Shown here: positions 26,924 to 33,628 of the stretch, piece after piece | How the letters are laid out: every line of letters starts with the position of its first letter | Position numbering within the stretch: the stretch's first letter is position 1 | Assembly: GCA_027064165.1 (NCBI GenBank) | Contig: JAMOQE010000060.1 | Location: 1 to 33,786 of the forward strand | Reading direction: 5' to 3' | Source of the DNA: Thermodesulfatator sp. | GTDB taxonomy: Bacteria; Desulfobacterota; Thermodesulfobacteria; Thermodesulfobacteriales; Thermodesulfobacteriaceae | DNA length: 33,786 nucleotides | The notes under the pieces: model-generated | Databases searched by the model: none | The model's input: the letters and a program-made list of their open reading frames with translations, nothing else | Told to the model about the DNA's origin: nothing | Made by a program: the position numbers and the translations under genes

Positions 26924-27997
26924 ATGCAACAAATCAAAGACATCCCAGAGTTTGTAAATAGGGAGAAAGAAATTAAGCAACTTAGGGCTGTACTCTCTGG
27001 AAGGCCTAATCTTGTGTATTTCGTCTATGGGCCTATAAACAGCGGTAAAACTGCTCTCCTCCTGAAAGTCCTTGATAAGCTTCCTGAAAACTATGTAGTA
27101 TTCTACATAAATTTCAGATGGAAGGATGTTCGTTCTATAGAAGACTTAATAAGAGTTATGTTTAAAATAAAAAGAGGCAAATTTTCTGAGGAAACAGCAG
27201 ATTTTATCAAAGAGTTATTAAAGGGCGGAGCACAAGTTTTAAAAAAGTTGAAAAGTATTCCTATCCCTGAAAATATTTTTGATTTATTATTTAGAAAAGT
27301 AGATAAAGTGGAAGATGTTTTTTCCTTTCTTGAGGAATATTTTGAAACAATAAAAGGAGCTAATTTAACACCAGTGCTTGTGCTTGACGAGATGCAAACA
27401 ATAAAAGATATTGTAAATGCAGCAGAAGTCCCGGTTTTAAGTGGTTTGTTTAATTTTCTTATTGGAATGACCAAAGAAAAACACCTCTGCCACTCTCTCT
27501 GCTCAACAAGTGATTGTTTGTTTATAGATCTGGTGTATAGTTCTGCCCGCCTTGAAGGAAGAGCAGAGTATTTGCTTGTGGATGACCTTCCTGAAAAAGA
27601 GGCTCTGAAAGTTTATGAAGAGTTTGGTTTTGAAGAAAAAGAGCTTATCTGGGACTATATAGGAGGAAAGCTTGGAGACATGGTGCGTCTTTTTGAAAAG
27701 AAAAAACAGGGTTATTCAGAAAAAGAGGCAGTTCAAAGAATGCTTGAAGATGAAAAAAGAAGAATAAAATGGTTATTAAGACTGGCAAAAGAAGGAAATA
27801 AACCTGCTCCAGCACTAAAAGAAATAAAAGAATTTTTGACTATCTTTAAAGAATTTTATGAAATAAAGGATGAAGATTTAAATGGAAAAGTATTAAAATT
27901 TTTGATTAAAGAAAACATATTATTTTACAATCCAGTAAAGGGAACAATTAGACCTCAAAGCCAGTTAATCTATAGAGCCATAAAAGAACTGGCGTAA
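26924..27997 (+). CDS. archaeal-type ATPase (ATPase_2 family)
   Basis: This 357-residue protein matches the archaeal-ATPase (ATPase_2, P-loop) group, abundant in thermophilic archaea and occasional in thermophilic bacteria. It begins with FVNREKEIKQL, then Walker A GPINSGKT (36-43), Walker B PVLVLDEMQ (150-158), and the sensor-like HLCHSLCSTSDCLF. DDLPEKEALKVYEEFGF starts the lid region, and the C-terminus is helical and winged-helix-like. The ATG follows ATAGGAGG. A TATAAT at 26884-26889 is the likely -10, though its -35 is poor. Such genes are frequently mobile and have no settled function. It ends four bases from the convergent nfi gene. Confidence 0.8.
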   Translation: MQQIKDIPEFVNREKEIKQLRAVLSGRPNLVYFVYGPINSGKTALLLKVLDKLPENYVVFYINFRWKDVRSIEDLIRVMFKIKRGKFSEETADFIKELLKGGAQVLKKLKSIPIPENIFDLLFRKVDKVEDVFSFLEEYFETIKGANLTPVLVLDEMQTIKDIVNAAEVPVLSGLFNFLIGMTKEKHLCHSLCSTSDCLFIDLVYSSARLEGRAEYLLVDDLPEKEALKVYEEFGFEEKELIWDYIGGKLGDMVRLFEKKKQGYSEKEAVQRMLEDEKRRIKWLLRLAKEGNKPAPALKEIKEFLTIFKEFYEIKDEDLNGKVLKFLIKENILFYNPVKGTIRPQSQLIYRAIKELA

Positions 27998-28821: not shown

Positions 28822-29775
28822 TTACACAAAGCCAAAAGTTTTTCTTCCAGAAGGATTATTAAACTTGGCTTCCTCTGAGAGGGCTTTAATAAAGCTCTCA
28901 GGAGAAAAGTCCTCTTCTATGAGTTTAAGCCTTCTGTAAACTGTAGCAAAATTTCCTGGAGTAAGAAGAAGCTTTGAAAGTTCAGAGCGATACCTCTCAG
29001 CCTCTTTCTCTCCGAAAAGACTTGCAAAAAATTTTACTGCCTGTACGGGAGTCAAATAGTCAAATTTTACTTTTAAGTCAAATCTTCTCATCACTGCTTC
29101 ATCAAGGGCATCAACAAAATTTGTGGCACAGATAAAAATTCCCTCAAATCCCTCCATCTGGGGTAAAAGCTCGTTTACCATGCTTACTTCCCAGGAATAC
29201 TTGGCATCCTTTCTGCTCAAAAGAAAGGTATCTGCCTCGTCAAGGAGAAGCACTGCCTTTTCTTCTCTTGCCTCTCTAAACATATAGGCAATGTTAATTT
29301 CTGTTTCTCCTACAAAAGGAGAAATTATGTCAGATGCTCTTTTAAGCAGGAGTTCTTTCCCAAGATTCTCGGCTATTTTCCTTGCAAGCTCGGTTTTTCC
29401 CGTTCCAGGAGGCCCATAAAACAAAATCCTTCCTCTTGGGGAGCGTCTAAGGGCAGAGAGAATTTTTTGGATATTACAGTCTGTATTCAGAGCGTCTTCT
29501 AAGAAAGGAAGCTTTACTGCTGAGTTCTCTTCCTTTAAATTTACTTTAAAGCCCAGGGCTTCTAATGAAGAAGTTATAACGAATTCTGCTTCTTTTTCTG
29601 GAGTTTGAGGGTTTGAAAGAGAGACGACTTTTGCCGCTTTTTCAATTACTGATGGTGAAAGGTGTTTTATTTCTGCTATTCTTTTAAGCCAGGCTTCTGA
29701 AACTTTGAGGTTTTTAAAATAGCTTTTCAAAATTTTAAGTCTTGCCGAGCGTGGAAGATAGTCCATTTTAAGCAC
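28822..29775 (-). CDS. AAA ATPase, second domain of a truncated tandem-AAA protein
   Basis: The 317-residue frame begins with a helical linker (DYLPRSARLKILKSYF) and then one AAA module: Walker [10 protein letters not shown] (about 120), Walker B VLLLDEAD, sensor ATNF and arginine-finger MRRFD. Upstream in the same frame the codons read TTILTIL-like residues, TGA (29790-29788), then RFDIVLK directly before the frame. This mirrors the protein's own MRRFDLKVKFDYLTP, so RRFDIVLKMDYLP is the end of a first AAA module interrupted by CGA-to-TGA or similar. Most of that first module is missing. No ribosome site precedes the possible starts (GTG 29775, ATG 29766), so expression is doubtful. Confidence 0.75.
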   Translation of the reverse strand: MLKMDYLPRSARLKILKSYFKNLKVSEAWLKRIAEIKHLSPSVIEKAAKVVSLSNPQTPEKEAEFVITSSLEALGFKVNLKEENSAVKLPFLEDALNTDCNIQKILSALRRSPRGRILFYGPPGTGKTELARKIAENLGKELLLKRASDIISPFVGETEINIAYMFREAREEKAVLLLDEADTFLLSRKDAKYSWEVSMVNELLPQMEGFEGIFICATNFVDALDEAVMRRFDLKVKFDYLTPVQAVKFFASLFGEKEAERYRSELSKLLLTPGNFATVYRRLKLIEEDFSPESFIKALSEEAKFNNPSGRKTFGFV

Positions 29776-29848
29776 TATATCAAAACGTCAGAGGATTGTT
29801 AAAATTTGAAAAATTTCAGAAGAAGTTTTATATAGATTTTAAAAGTTT

Positions 29849-29951
29849 CTGGATAGAAGTTTTACGATGTTTGAACTTGCAAATTTTACTCATTCCGATC
29901 TTTTATGCTGGAAGTATTTTAAAAATTTCTCAATAAAAACTTTCTATCCAG
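29849..29951. repeat. inverted repeat around the nuclease 3' end
   Basis: CTGGATAGAAGTTTT (29849-29863) and AAAACTTTCTATCCAG (29936-29951) are complementary except for one inserted base, 72 bases apart. The right arm includes the last codons of the nuclease gene. It may be an inverted scrap of that gene's end. Confidence 0.4.
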
Positions 29952-30631
29952 TCTATAAAATCCTGAATAAAAAACCTTACCTTCTCTGCTTTACATTCTT
30001 TTAAACACTCTTTTAACCAGGGTTCAAGTAAGTCCCTGTATGAGCATTCAAAATATTTTGAAGATTTTCTCATTTCTTTTGTGGATGTTTCTGCTTCTCT
30101 TCCATCTGGAGTTAAAAAGATTAGAATAAAATTTTCATACTTATTTTTCAAATAATCAAAGTATTCTTCAAGCTGCCGTGGGGTTTCAGGAGCCCATATT
30201 TTATTTTCCAATCCAATAGCAGGCAAATCATATTGGGAAGCAGTATTTGGCTCAATTAACAAATCCAATCTTTTAAATTTTTCCTCTTCTTTCTCCTTTG
30301 TTACTTTTTCTCTTATTATTTTTGCTTTTTTTAAAGATATATAATTTAAAGAACTTACAAGATTGATATTATCGGAAAGTTTTAAAACTGCCTGATAGAA
30401 TAATTTCAAAAATATATCTCCCTGGGCGTGTTCTCCATCTGGATCAAGGAGCATCCTAATAATATCCGAAAATTTATTCTCCTCGTTAGCTGGATTTAAG
30501 AGCTTTACTAAGTTAAAACTTTTCGCAAGATACACATTTATTCCCTTCCATATTTCTTTTTGTGTTTTAAGTTCAAATAGTAAAGAAGATAAAATTGAAT
30601 TCAGTTCCTCCTCATTAACCGAATACTTCAT
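29930..30631 (-). CDS. PD-(D/E)XK nuclease superfamily protein (PDDEXK_4-like)
   Basis: This 233-residue protein shows the PDDEXK_4 pattern. An N-terminal NKFSDIIRMLLDPDGEHAQGDIFLKLF precedes a basic stretch. Then come RLDLLIEP (catalytic Asp strand) and AIGLENKIWAPETPRQLEEY with the E-x-K element, then ILIFLTPDGREAETS. These suggest a Mg-dependent DNA endonuclease; the family includes uncharacterised defence-associated nucleases. The frame is open to 30655, but ATG 30631 has GGTGGAGG six bases upstream and is preferred. It overlaps the preceding gene by 17 bases, which implies coupled expression. Its termination codon is near an inverted repeat. Confidence 0.75.
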   Translation of the reverse strand: MKYSVNEEELNSILSSLLFELKTQKEIWKGINVYLAKSFNLVKLLNPANEENKFSDIIRMLLDPDGEHAQGDIFLKLFYQAVLKLSDNINLVSSLNYISLKKAKIIREKVTKEKEEEKFKRLDLLIEPNTASQYDLPAIGLENKIWAPETPRQLEEYFDYLKNKYENFILIFLTPDGREAETSTKEMRKSSKYFECSYRDLLEPWLKECLKECKAEKVRFFIQDFIDWIESFY

Positions 30632-31406
30632 TACAAACCTCCACCAATTCATCAAATTTGTCCTTAGTCAATTCGTAAATCCTTTTAAATTTGTTTATAT
30701 ATTTATTAACCGTCTCTTGGGGATCTTCTAAAAATTCCCGATAAAAAGCTCTTCTGCTTGATCTTTGACGCTGATCTTTAATCTCGGGATCCCATCCAGT
30801 TGCTCTTCCTATATTCACAATAAATATACCTCCCCACTTTTTAAAATCTTCTTGCCAATTTTCGGTTTTTTCTAAAATTATCTTTTCTTGTATTAAAAGT
30901 TCATATATATTCTCAACGATTTTACAAAATTGAGAATTTTGAAGCAATTTTTCAAAAATTTTTGAAGCTCCTTTTAAATGCTCTGATTCAAATCCAATTT
31001 CTTGAACTCCCAATCCAAAACTAATTTCTTGGCTACCCCAATCAACGCTATTCATAATATAATAATAAAATCCCCATTTTTCTGCTTTTTCTATTTCTTC
31101 GCTAATTTTTTGAGGGAGTCCTATTTTCCAAGCATCTTTATAAATCCAAAATGCCTCATTTTTATCTTTTTTGTCTCCCCATTTCAAATCTCCACTATAG
31201 GCAATCTCAAAATTTTCGTCTATTTCCTTTATTTCCGATATCAACCTATTTTTAAAATCTTCAAATATGCGTTTTTCTATCTCAGGAAATACATCATAAA
31301 TAACACAAAACACTTCAAATCTTTCGCTCCTTTCCTGACCATTTTTTTCATTTAAAACAAATTCTTTTGCTTTTTGTTTTAAGAAACTAAAAAGGGCATC
31401 ACTCAT
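30615..31406 (-). CDS. uncharacterised protein paired with the PD-(D/E)XK nuclease
   Basis: I do not recognise this 263-residue protein. It is acidic and helical, with aromatic-rich strands in the middle (AFWIYKDAWKIGLP, WGFYYYIMNSVDWGSQ) and a helical C-terminus. The middle loosely recalls the C-terminal accessory region that follows the nuclease core in longer PDDEXK_4 proteins, so it may be a separated subunit of the same nuclease; this is inference. The frame opens with GTG 31409, but ATG 31406 behind GAGGAGGT is better. It overlaps the nuclease gene by 17 bases. A broken gene lies immediately upstream. Confidence 0.65.
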   Translation of the reverse strand: MSDALFSFLKQKAKEFVLNEKNGQERSERFEVFCVIYDVFPEIEKRIFEDFKNRLISEIKEIDENFEIAYSGDLKWGDKKDKNEAFWIYKDAWKIGLPQKISEEIEKAEKWGFYYYIMNSVDWGSQEISFGLGVQEIGFESEHLKGASKIFEKLLQNSQFCKIVENIYELLIQEKIILEKTENWQEDFKKWGGIFIVNIGRATGWDPEIKDQRQRSSRRAFYREFLEDPQETVNKYINKFKRIYELTKDKFDELVEVCNEVFG

Positions 31407-31448
31407 CACAACCTCCTCATATTTTTGATTATTTTTTAAAATTTTATT

Positions 31449-32123: not shown

Positions 32124-32288
32124 CTAAGAAGCTTCTACAAAAGATTTAACGCTTTTTATAAAAAAGTCCTTTATTTCACCCCAGCGTTTATCCACATTTC
32201 ACTCCTCTAAAAGCTCCTCAGGTGTCCAGAGCCTTTTAGGATCCCTGGCTGAGTGCTAAACATCTTCCCAAAAATCTCTTGATTTTAC
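32124..32288 (-). pseudogene. short gene remnant with two in-frame stops
   Basis: On the minus strand one frame reads SRDFWEDV, TAG (32258-32256), HSARDPKRLWTPEELLEE, TGA (32201-32199), NVDKRWGEIKDFFIKSVKSF and so on to TAG at 32126-32124. The amino-acid pattern is protein-like throughout, and the first stop sits where Trp would fit. No start codon is seen. The family is unknown. Between this and 31963 only AT-rich sequence is visible. Confidence 0.4.
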
Positions 32289-32306
32289 ATTTAATTACAT
32301 TATAAT
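32279..32306 (+). promoter_or_regulatory. promoter of the right-hand DUF4143 ATPase
   Basis: TTGATT (32279-32284), a 16-base spacer and a perfect TATAAT (32301-32306). The expected transcription start is near 32313, only two bases before the ATG at 32315, and no ribosome site is present, so a leaderless mRNA is predicted. Confidence 0.65.
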
Positions 32307-32333
32307 GTAATTAAATGCTTCATTTAATTACAT
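32289..32333. promoter_or_regulatory. perfect 28-bp palindrome plus a third half-site (operator)
   Basis: ATTTAATTACAT (32289-32300), TATA, and the exact complement ATGTAATTAAAT (32305-32316) form a perfect palindrome that contains the -10 box and touches the start codon. A third copy of ATTTAATTACAT lies at 32322-32333, inside codons 3-7, 33 bases from the first copy. The arrangement is that of a repressor operator. Confidence 0.7.
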
Positions 32334-33628
32334 TTAACCGCTGGTGGGATACAGGAAGAGTTCCAGAAGCTTATCTCAAACCTTTTAAGCGTGAACTCTT
32401 TAATAAAATCTTAAAATTTTTAGACGCTCCGCAAATAATCTTGATTTATGGGCTCAGAAGAGTAGGAAAAACCGTTTTAATGTACCAACTGATTGATTAT
32501 CTCTTAAAAAGTGGAATAGACAAAAAGCACATCCTTTACTTTACTTTTGACGAAAAAATTGCTTCTTTAAAAGAACTTCTGGAGGAATATGCCGGGCTGG
32601 TGTTGGGAAAAGATATTTTAACCGCTGGGAAAATTTATGTATTTTTGGATGAAATTCAAAAATTAAAGGACTGGCAGGAGCAGTTGAAACTCTTTTACGA
32701 CCTTTATCCTAATGTAAAGTTTATTGTTTCTGGTTCTGCAAGTCTTGTAATTTCAAAAGGGGCTAAAGAGAGTCTGGCAGGAAGAATTTATGAATTCATC
32801 CTGCCACTTTTAAGTTTCAAAGAATATTTGAGTTTTCTGGGGGAAAGTATCCCTCAAACAAAAAATGTTTACGATTTCTCAGAGCTAAAGGAAATTTATT
32901 TAAAAAGAGAGAGAATTTTTCCTTTATTTTTTTCTTACTTAAAAAGCGGAGGTTTTATTGAAATTGCAGGAGAAGAGGACGATTTTAAGATTAAAGAATA
33001 TTCAAAATCAATTTTAGAGCGAGTAATTCTGGGAGATATTCCTTTAAGTTTTAAGATAAAAGAACCCCTGATTTTAAAAGATATTATTGAGCTGATAGCT
33101 TCTAATCCTGGATTTTTGCTTGATTATTCTAAACTGGCAGAAATTTTTAAGAAAGATAAACGGGTGATTTCAAACTATATCTTTTATCTTCAGTATGCTT
33201 TGTTAATAAAAGTGCTCTCCAATTTTTCAGGCTCAAAATTTTCTTCAGGAAGAAAGCTAAAAAAAGTCTATCTGGCTTCCACAAATTTTATTTTTCAATT
33301 CTTTCAGGAGAAATTTTTTGATTCCGAATTCATAGGAAAAATTATTGAAAATGTGGTAGCAAATTTTTTAAACACAGATTTTTTCTGGCGAGAGAGAAAA
33401 AATGAAGTGGACTTTGTTTTAGAAAACAAAATGGAGAAAATTCCTATAGAAGTAAAATGGAAAGAAAAAATTAAACCAAAAGACTTAAAAGGAATTTTGA
33501 AATTTTGCGAAAAGTTTAATTCTAATAAAGGAATTATTTTGACAAAAGACGAATTAAAAAAAGAAAAATTCAGCTCTACAGAGCTTTATTTTATTCCAGT
33601 CTGGATTTATTTGCTATTTGTAACATAA
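32315..33628 (+). CDS. AAA ATPase with DUF4143 domain (second type)
   Basis: This 437-residue AAA_14/DUF4143 ATPase is of a different subtype from the one at 594. The N-terminus FNRWWDTGRVP is a family signature. Walker A is GLRRVGKT (46-53), Walker B is YVFLDEIQ (108-115), and the sensor is VSGSASL. After a winged-helix-like stretch (DYSKLAEIFKKDKRVISNYIFYL), the C-terminus has WRERKNEVDFVLEN then IPIEVKWKEK, a PD-(D/E)XK-like pattern. ATG 32315 is the only suitable start and has no ribosome site; promoter position suggests leaderless translation under a palindromic operator. The 3' end overlaps the convergent DUF2779 gene by 22 bases. The role is unknown. Confidence 0.85.
   Translation: MLHLITFNRWWDTGRVPEAYLKPFKRELFNKILKFLDAPQIILIYGLRRVGKTVLMYQLIDYLLKSGIDKKHILYFTFDEKIASLKELLEEYAGLVLGKDILTAGKIYVFLDEIQKLKDWQEQLKLFYDLYPNVKFIVSGSASLVISKGAKESLAGRIYEFILPLLSFKEYLSFLGESIPQTKNVYDFSELKEIYLKRERIFPLFFSYLKSGGFIEIAGEEDDFKIKEYSKSILERVILGDIPLSFKIKEPLILKDIIELIASNPGFLLDYSKLAEIFKKDKRVISNYIFYLQYALLIKVLSNFSGSKFSSGRKLKKVYLASTNFIFQFFQEKFFDSEFIGKIIENVVANFLNTDFFWRERKNEVDFVLENKMEKIPIEVKWKEKIKPKDLKGILKFCEKFNSNKGIILTKDELKKEKFSSTELYFIPVWIYLLFVT

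Follow-up and report, generated by a model that had tools for sequence, protein, structure and literature searches.

Comparison with described systems

WYL-domain regulators of the BrxR and CapW type are DNA-binding proteins that control defence genes at promoter repeats, and in self-repressing enzymes and toxin-antitoxin systems (e.g. the DNA methyltransferase M.SsoII) the active protein acts at a palindrome to repress its own promoter. The locus described here, an ATPase gene with a palindrome across its promoter and start codon, differs from both. The WYL-type systems have a separate regulator gene, whereas at the ATPase locus the effector itself is the sole candidate; self-repressors of the M.SsoII type and toxin-antitoxin systems belong to unrelated families, whereas the putative DUF4143 operators vary by clade within a single family.

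We refer to the whole stretch of DNA that was analysed (33,786 bp) as the window. Its ATPase has the same domain composition as the PDC-S01 phage-defence candidates listed by PADLOC. A published account (PMC12988326) describes the PDC-S01 family as an ATPase with a PD-(D/E)XK part, ranks it fourth in frequency among the defences of prokaryotes, and states that experimental validation is pending for most PDCs. Few candidate defence genes are commoner than those of the DUF4143/PDC-S01 ATPases, and we found neither an established mechanism nor a literature report of a promoter palindrome or of self-control in the DUF4143/COG1373/PDC-S01 family.

The nearest solved folds are those of the archaeal ATPases SSO1545 (2fna) and PABY2304 (2qen), whose AAA and winged-helix parts give the closest matches (VIA Z 16.6-16.9), followed by CED-4/NLR-type ATPases and Orc1/Cdc6. 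Sequence identity of the ATPase to SSO1545, PABY2304 and Orc1/Cdc6 is 10-20%, the nuclease-like end falls outside the alignments, and a sequence search of solved structures gave no match to the ATPase. The Orc1/Cdc6 initiators on DNA (2qby) have a similar fold but bind replication origins.

The ATPase and the palindrome at its start

The 437-residue product exceeds the Pfam cut-offs for both AAA_14 and DUF4143, and the PADLOC PDC-S01 model PDLC04787 matches residues 24-434 (E 1e-62). An AlphaFold model built from 15 sequences (mean pLDDT 87.6, pTM 0.87) shows the AAA core, then a unit at residues 251-303, and then a C-terminal alpha/beta unit. The middle unit is predicted to be a winged helix, with helices at 251-263, 271-278 and 282-294 and a strand at 298-303, and a Thermus relative has HTH_IclR and HTH_5 matches above the Pfam cut-off within its DUF4143 domain; the model and these matches both support the winged-helix-like region that the initial annotation had assigned to the protein. 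At the nuclease-like end the Hjc and Mrr_cat matches are below the Pfam cut-off, and E345, D366, E379 and K381 occupy invariant alignment columns and form a PD-(D/E)XK pattern in the model. The protein has the combination of an AAA ATPase and a PD-(D/E)XK-type end by which PDC-S01 is recognised, with sub-threshold Pfam matches for the nuclease.

Table 1. Coordinates of the ATPase gene and of the features at its start (positions in the window)
Feature	Position	Strand	Basis
-35 box TTGATT	32279-32284	+	Promoter scan
Perfect 28-bp palindrome, proposed operator	32289-32316		Exact-copy search, palindrome scoring
Conserved operator core TTACATTNNAATGTAA	32295-32310		Sole exact site in this genome
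-10 box TATAAT, mid-palindrome	32301-32306	+	Promoter scan
AAA_14 + DUF4143 ATPase, 437 aa, PDC-S01 family	32315-33628	+	Pfam, PADLOC, orthologue starts
Third half-site, codons 3-7	32322-32333	+	Exact copy; conservation partial
AAA_14 P-loop domain, residues 40-172	32432-32830	+	Pfam
Winged-helix unit of DUF4143, candidate DNA-binding part	33065-33223	+	AlphaFold model
PD-(D/E)XK nuclease-like end, E345, D366, E379-x-K381	33323-33604	+	Sub-threshold Pfam, invariant columns, model

The three copies of ATTTAATTACAT noted by the initial annotation, one of them inverted, are all present without a mismatch (32289-32300 on the forward strand, 32305-32316 on the reverse strand, and the third half-site of Table 1), and no further exact copy occurs in the 1.49-Mb genome. 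The first two, arranged as ATTTAATTACAT-TATA-ATGTAATTAAAT, make up the perfect 28-bp palindrome, which is extended to 30 bp (32288-32317) by one further pair on each side (C/G flanks). It scores 15, the highest value in the window, where the runner-up scores 11, and among eight Markov-shuffled windows the best palindrome scored 12 in one and below 11 in the other seven. With two mismatches allowed ATTTAATTACAT is no rarer than in shuffled sequence, and it is the order and symmetry of the copies, rather than the 12-mer itself, that is unusual.

The palindrome does cover the -10 box and the start, as had been claimed: TATAAT lies at its centre, and its right arm overlaps the ATG (32315-32317). 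The region has no better promoter-like site than that formed by TTGATT and TATAAT, which are 16 bp apart and match at 10 of 12 positions. Since the ATG overlaps the right arm and no Shine-Dalgarno stretch was seen before it, the ATPase mRNA is probably leaderless. The third half-site encodes the conserved residues HLITF, carries two silent changes in an orthologue from Desantisbacteria and is changed in a decayed copy of the gene; the 28-bp palindrome was borne out, whereas the role proposed for this coding and not strictly conserved third copy was not established.

Conservation with the gene and rarity elsewhere

Orthologues that are 56-83% identical are found in a second Thermodesulfobacterium (L048/L019, genome G008), a Parcubacterium (L049) and a Desantisbacterium (L050), and a decayed copy (L310 1000-1520, G144:C24) has residues 1-25, 42-79 and 325-434 still recognisable. 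All of these share the start MLxLIxxNRWWDTG with TTACATTNNAATGTAA directly before the ATG, which is at an identical position in the orthologues. All, the decayed copy included, also keep a -35-like hexamer, at ~17 bp from the -10 box in L048, L049 and L050. DNA farther upstream is unrelated, and similarity between the window and L049 begins at 32278, at the -35 box. The comparison of orthologues that the initial annotation had proposed thus found the palindrome at all close ones and at the pseudogene, which keeps 20 bp of it. A more distant relative, L109 (~40% identity), has the core ACATTATAATGT twice.

Judged from the translations, the ATPase gene has recG- and priA-like neighbours in L050, sits within a glycosyltransferase cluster in L049 and is next to a transposase-like gene in L048; no regulator gene is common to the four ATPase loci. 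In the closest orthologue (L048 3001-4312, G008:C8) a frameshift, either real or an assembly error, removes the nuclease-like end, and the AAA part, the winged helix, the complete palindrome and the third half-site are retained.

The exact core TTACATTNNAATGTAA occurs at one site each in the genome of the window (G000) and in the Parcubacteria and Desantisbacteria genomes (G232 and G233). Among 395 genomes of the phylum, four have a longer pattern, AATTACATTNNAATGTAAYT. In three of them (G000, G008 and G144) all sites are at this ATPase, that in G144 being the pseudogene start; in the fourth (G050) the pattern lies ~0.3 kb upstream of a different DUF4143 gene. The reversed pattern, used as a control, has no match in the 395 genomes. 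The exact palindrome had no match in a wider set of genome contigs, from which the own and near genomes may have been excluded, and in viral contigs neither a close ATPase relative nor the operator-plus-start pattern was found, with distant relatives recovered by a profile.

Start-region palindromes in the DUF4143 family

For 164 DUF4143-type genes of the phylum the best palindrome in the 230 bp before the P-loop was compared with 100 dinucleotide shuffles. Palindromes with p<=0.01 were found in 37 of these, as opposed to 9 of 224 starts of other genes, which are predicted (first start codon) and hence roughly placed, and to 3 of 156 farther-upstream and 3 of 169 internal regions of the DUF4143 genes themselves (Fisher p 2e-8 to 8e-10, for genes gathered by similarity, which sample the clades unevenly and include near relatives that are not independent). 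Scores of at least 12 were reached at 29 family starts, 1 of their own upstream regions, no internal region and 6 other gene starts. Bacteroidota gave an independent replicate, with 12 of 27 family starts against 0 of 27 and 0 of 28 controls, and start-region palindromes were seen in 0 of 21 members of the MJ1010-like ATPase_2 family, which presumably also combines AAA with a winged helix-turn-helix.

Most palindrome centres fall within the 60 bases preceding the ATG, and in some relatives on the ATG itself. TTGACA is found in the best family palindromes 16 times in the orientation of the gene and once in the opposite one; we therefore regard them as promoter palindromes. More than half of the family genes have no significant palindrome by the shuffle test, in part because short or interrupted sites fail it though conserved; the L049 site, for example, scores 7 and fails, and its conservation shows it to be real. 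Plasmid DUF4143 genes with annotated starts leave the picture unchanged: a number of them have clear palindromes and a number have none.

The palindromes follow the protein lineages. Between pairs with 45-90% protein identity palindrome similarity is 0.41-0.58, compared with a background of 0.22 for the adjacent flank, and below ~40% identity palindromes are mostly unrelated (0.21). Two Azotobacter species have sites of the type TTGAAATTCATCCA...TGG...AATTTCAA, as do one genome each of Bacteroidota and Thermodesulfobacteriota, and Pseudomonas mendocina carries a variant. The proteins of this clade are 37-55% identical between phyla; the Azotobacter clade palindrome reads TGGTGTAATTTC... The site AAGATCA-N6-TGATCTT is shared by an Acinetobacter plasmid, an IMG/VR contig and a Thermodesulfobacteriota locus (L113), whose proteins are 51-59% identical. 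Family members within one genome carry differing palindromes, and in the window an imperfect one, CTTGAAAATTTACA-N7-TGTTAATCTTCAAG at 557-591, immediately precedes the other DUF4143 ATPase gene, whose ATG is near 594, and is common to that gene's relatives L103 and L102 in other genomes.

Palindrome similarity correlates with winged-helix identity at rho 0.40 and with that of the other domains at 0.24-0.27 (n=105, non-independent pairs), and the winged-helix correlation is confined to close pairs, being absent at 28-45% identity; a dependence of the operator sequence on the winged helix is only suggestive from these comparisons. Two other arrangements were seen among the relatives. L100 (G048:C52) has two DUF4143 genes, each with a near-identical 60-bp imperfect palindrome (GGGACGTTGTTACATTGTTAAATT...) that is possibly a small mobile or repeated element, and in L026 and L028 apparently divergent pairs of DUF4143 genes share one intervening palindrome of the CTCTAAAMTGGA-N-TCCATTTTAGAG type.

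Proposed self-repression and its alternatives

The palindrome is very probably a DNA operator, and its operator nature and co-inheritance with the gene are well supported; that it is the operator by which each ATPase represses its own promoter we consider probable. It lies over the promoter, is kept with the gene and is rare elsewhere, and the product has a predicted DNA-binding domain. An operator at the promoter accounts for its position, sense, conservation, rarity and clade specificity. Because the loci have nothing but the ATPase in common, and this protein has a predicted winged helix, binding by the ATPase itself is the simplest reading, and we infer it from the sequences and the structural model. 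Against it, a winged helix is also present in the ATPase_2 proteins, whose genes are without such palindromes, and winged helices in STAND and Orc folds need not bind specific sites. The lineage-following start palindromes across many phyla suggest that these single-gene systems control themselves.

According to this proposal the operator would travel with the ATPase gene in a minimal cassette of promoter, operator and gene. The ATPase, as a symmetric dimer or oligomer, would bind the palindrome through the DUF4143 winged helix, covering the -10 box and the start and keeping a potentially harmful ATPase-nuclease scarce. Some trigger would lift the repression, either by a change of conformation or nucleotide state or by titration during invasion, leading to induction. 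A more speculative extension, which we hold only tentatively, is that each member has a private palindrome, with winged helix and operator co-evolving as lock and key so that copies are independently controlled, and that the operator-bound ATPase is a sensor, pulled off by invader DNA or its processing, which would both activate the protein and induce the gene. A family-wide, clade-specific operator would supply a DNA ligand for biochemistry and a reporter route to the inducer, would explain the safe movement of solitary genes between phyla, and would be a sequence handle for predicting protein-DNA pairs.

In Thermus thermophilus HB27 the DUF4143 gene TT_P0211 is up 6.6-fold with a plasmid and Argonaute together (PMC4406477), a result that demonstrates no more than the inducibility of such a gene. 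A DUF4143 gene of the same megaplasmid, TT_RS11170, which is probably TT_P0211, has CTGAATGACTATCATTCAA directly before its ATG.

Among the alternatives, binding of the operator by a different, unlinked host repressor or activator is the strongest, though improbable. A palindrome in a promoter is usually the site of a dedicated repressor, and WYL-type regulators control other defence loci (PMC9122601). However, in each genome the core is found almost exclusively at the ATPase gene, it is shared by three phyla whose loci have only the ATPase in common, and the differing palindromes within one genome would require a regulator apiece.

Control of translation by an RNA hairpin around the start codon is much less likely than either. 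The right arm (32304-32317) and 32321-32334 do form a second inverted repeat, with perfect 14-bp arms and a 3-nt loop (CTT) that surround the ATG, and a palindrome centred on the ATG in some relatives would fit such a structure. But TATAAT would place the transcription start near 32313, which would leave most of the right arm untranscribed; the hairpin repeat is imperfect in L049 and L050, where the palindrome core is intact, and many family palindromes include -35 boxes, which are not transcribed.

Equally hard to sustain is a recombination or nuclease target, whether as the terminus or insertion site of a mobile gene or as a cleavage site of the PD-(D/E)XK part. Palindromes suit nucleases, and transfer of a solitary gene between phyla, as seen from its unlike surroundings in L050 and L049, is compatible with mobility; on the other hand, the palindromes lie over promoters that are oriented with the gene, the 3' side showed no matching repeat, and a search of 14 genus genomes for the upstream flank gave no match and so no empty site. 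Repeats flanking the ATPase cassettes were limited to a 63-bp direct repeat (94%) in L049 (2809-2871 and 4454-4516), which corresponds to a glycosyltransferase gene start and is better explained as what is left of a glycosyltransferase paralogue than as an insertion trace. Chance, or a compositional effect of AT-rich DNA, could explain the mismatched copies of the 12-mer, which are as frequent in shuffles, but hardly a palindrome that is the strongest in the window and conserved across three phyla, or a family enrichment that survives dinucleotide shuffles and matched controls.

Neighbouring genes

The MJ1010-like ATPase_2 gene at 26924-27997 belongs to a family with ~17 strong members in this genome; its genus relatives show no such expansion. 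By the family test it has no start palindrome, and an inverted repeat, CCTGGTGGTATTTATA...TATATAATACCACCGG, is located ~95 bp before its start. Between this gene and the ATPase, 28822-31409 encodes an IetA-like AAA protein and a PDC-S26-like PDDEXK_4 protein; as these match candidate defence families, the ATPase may be part of a defence neighbourhood.
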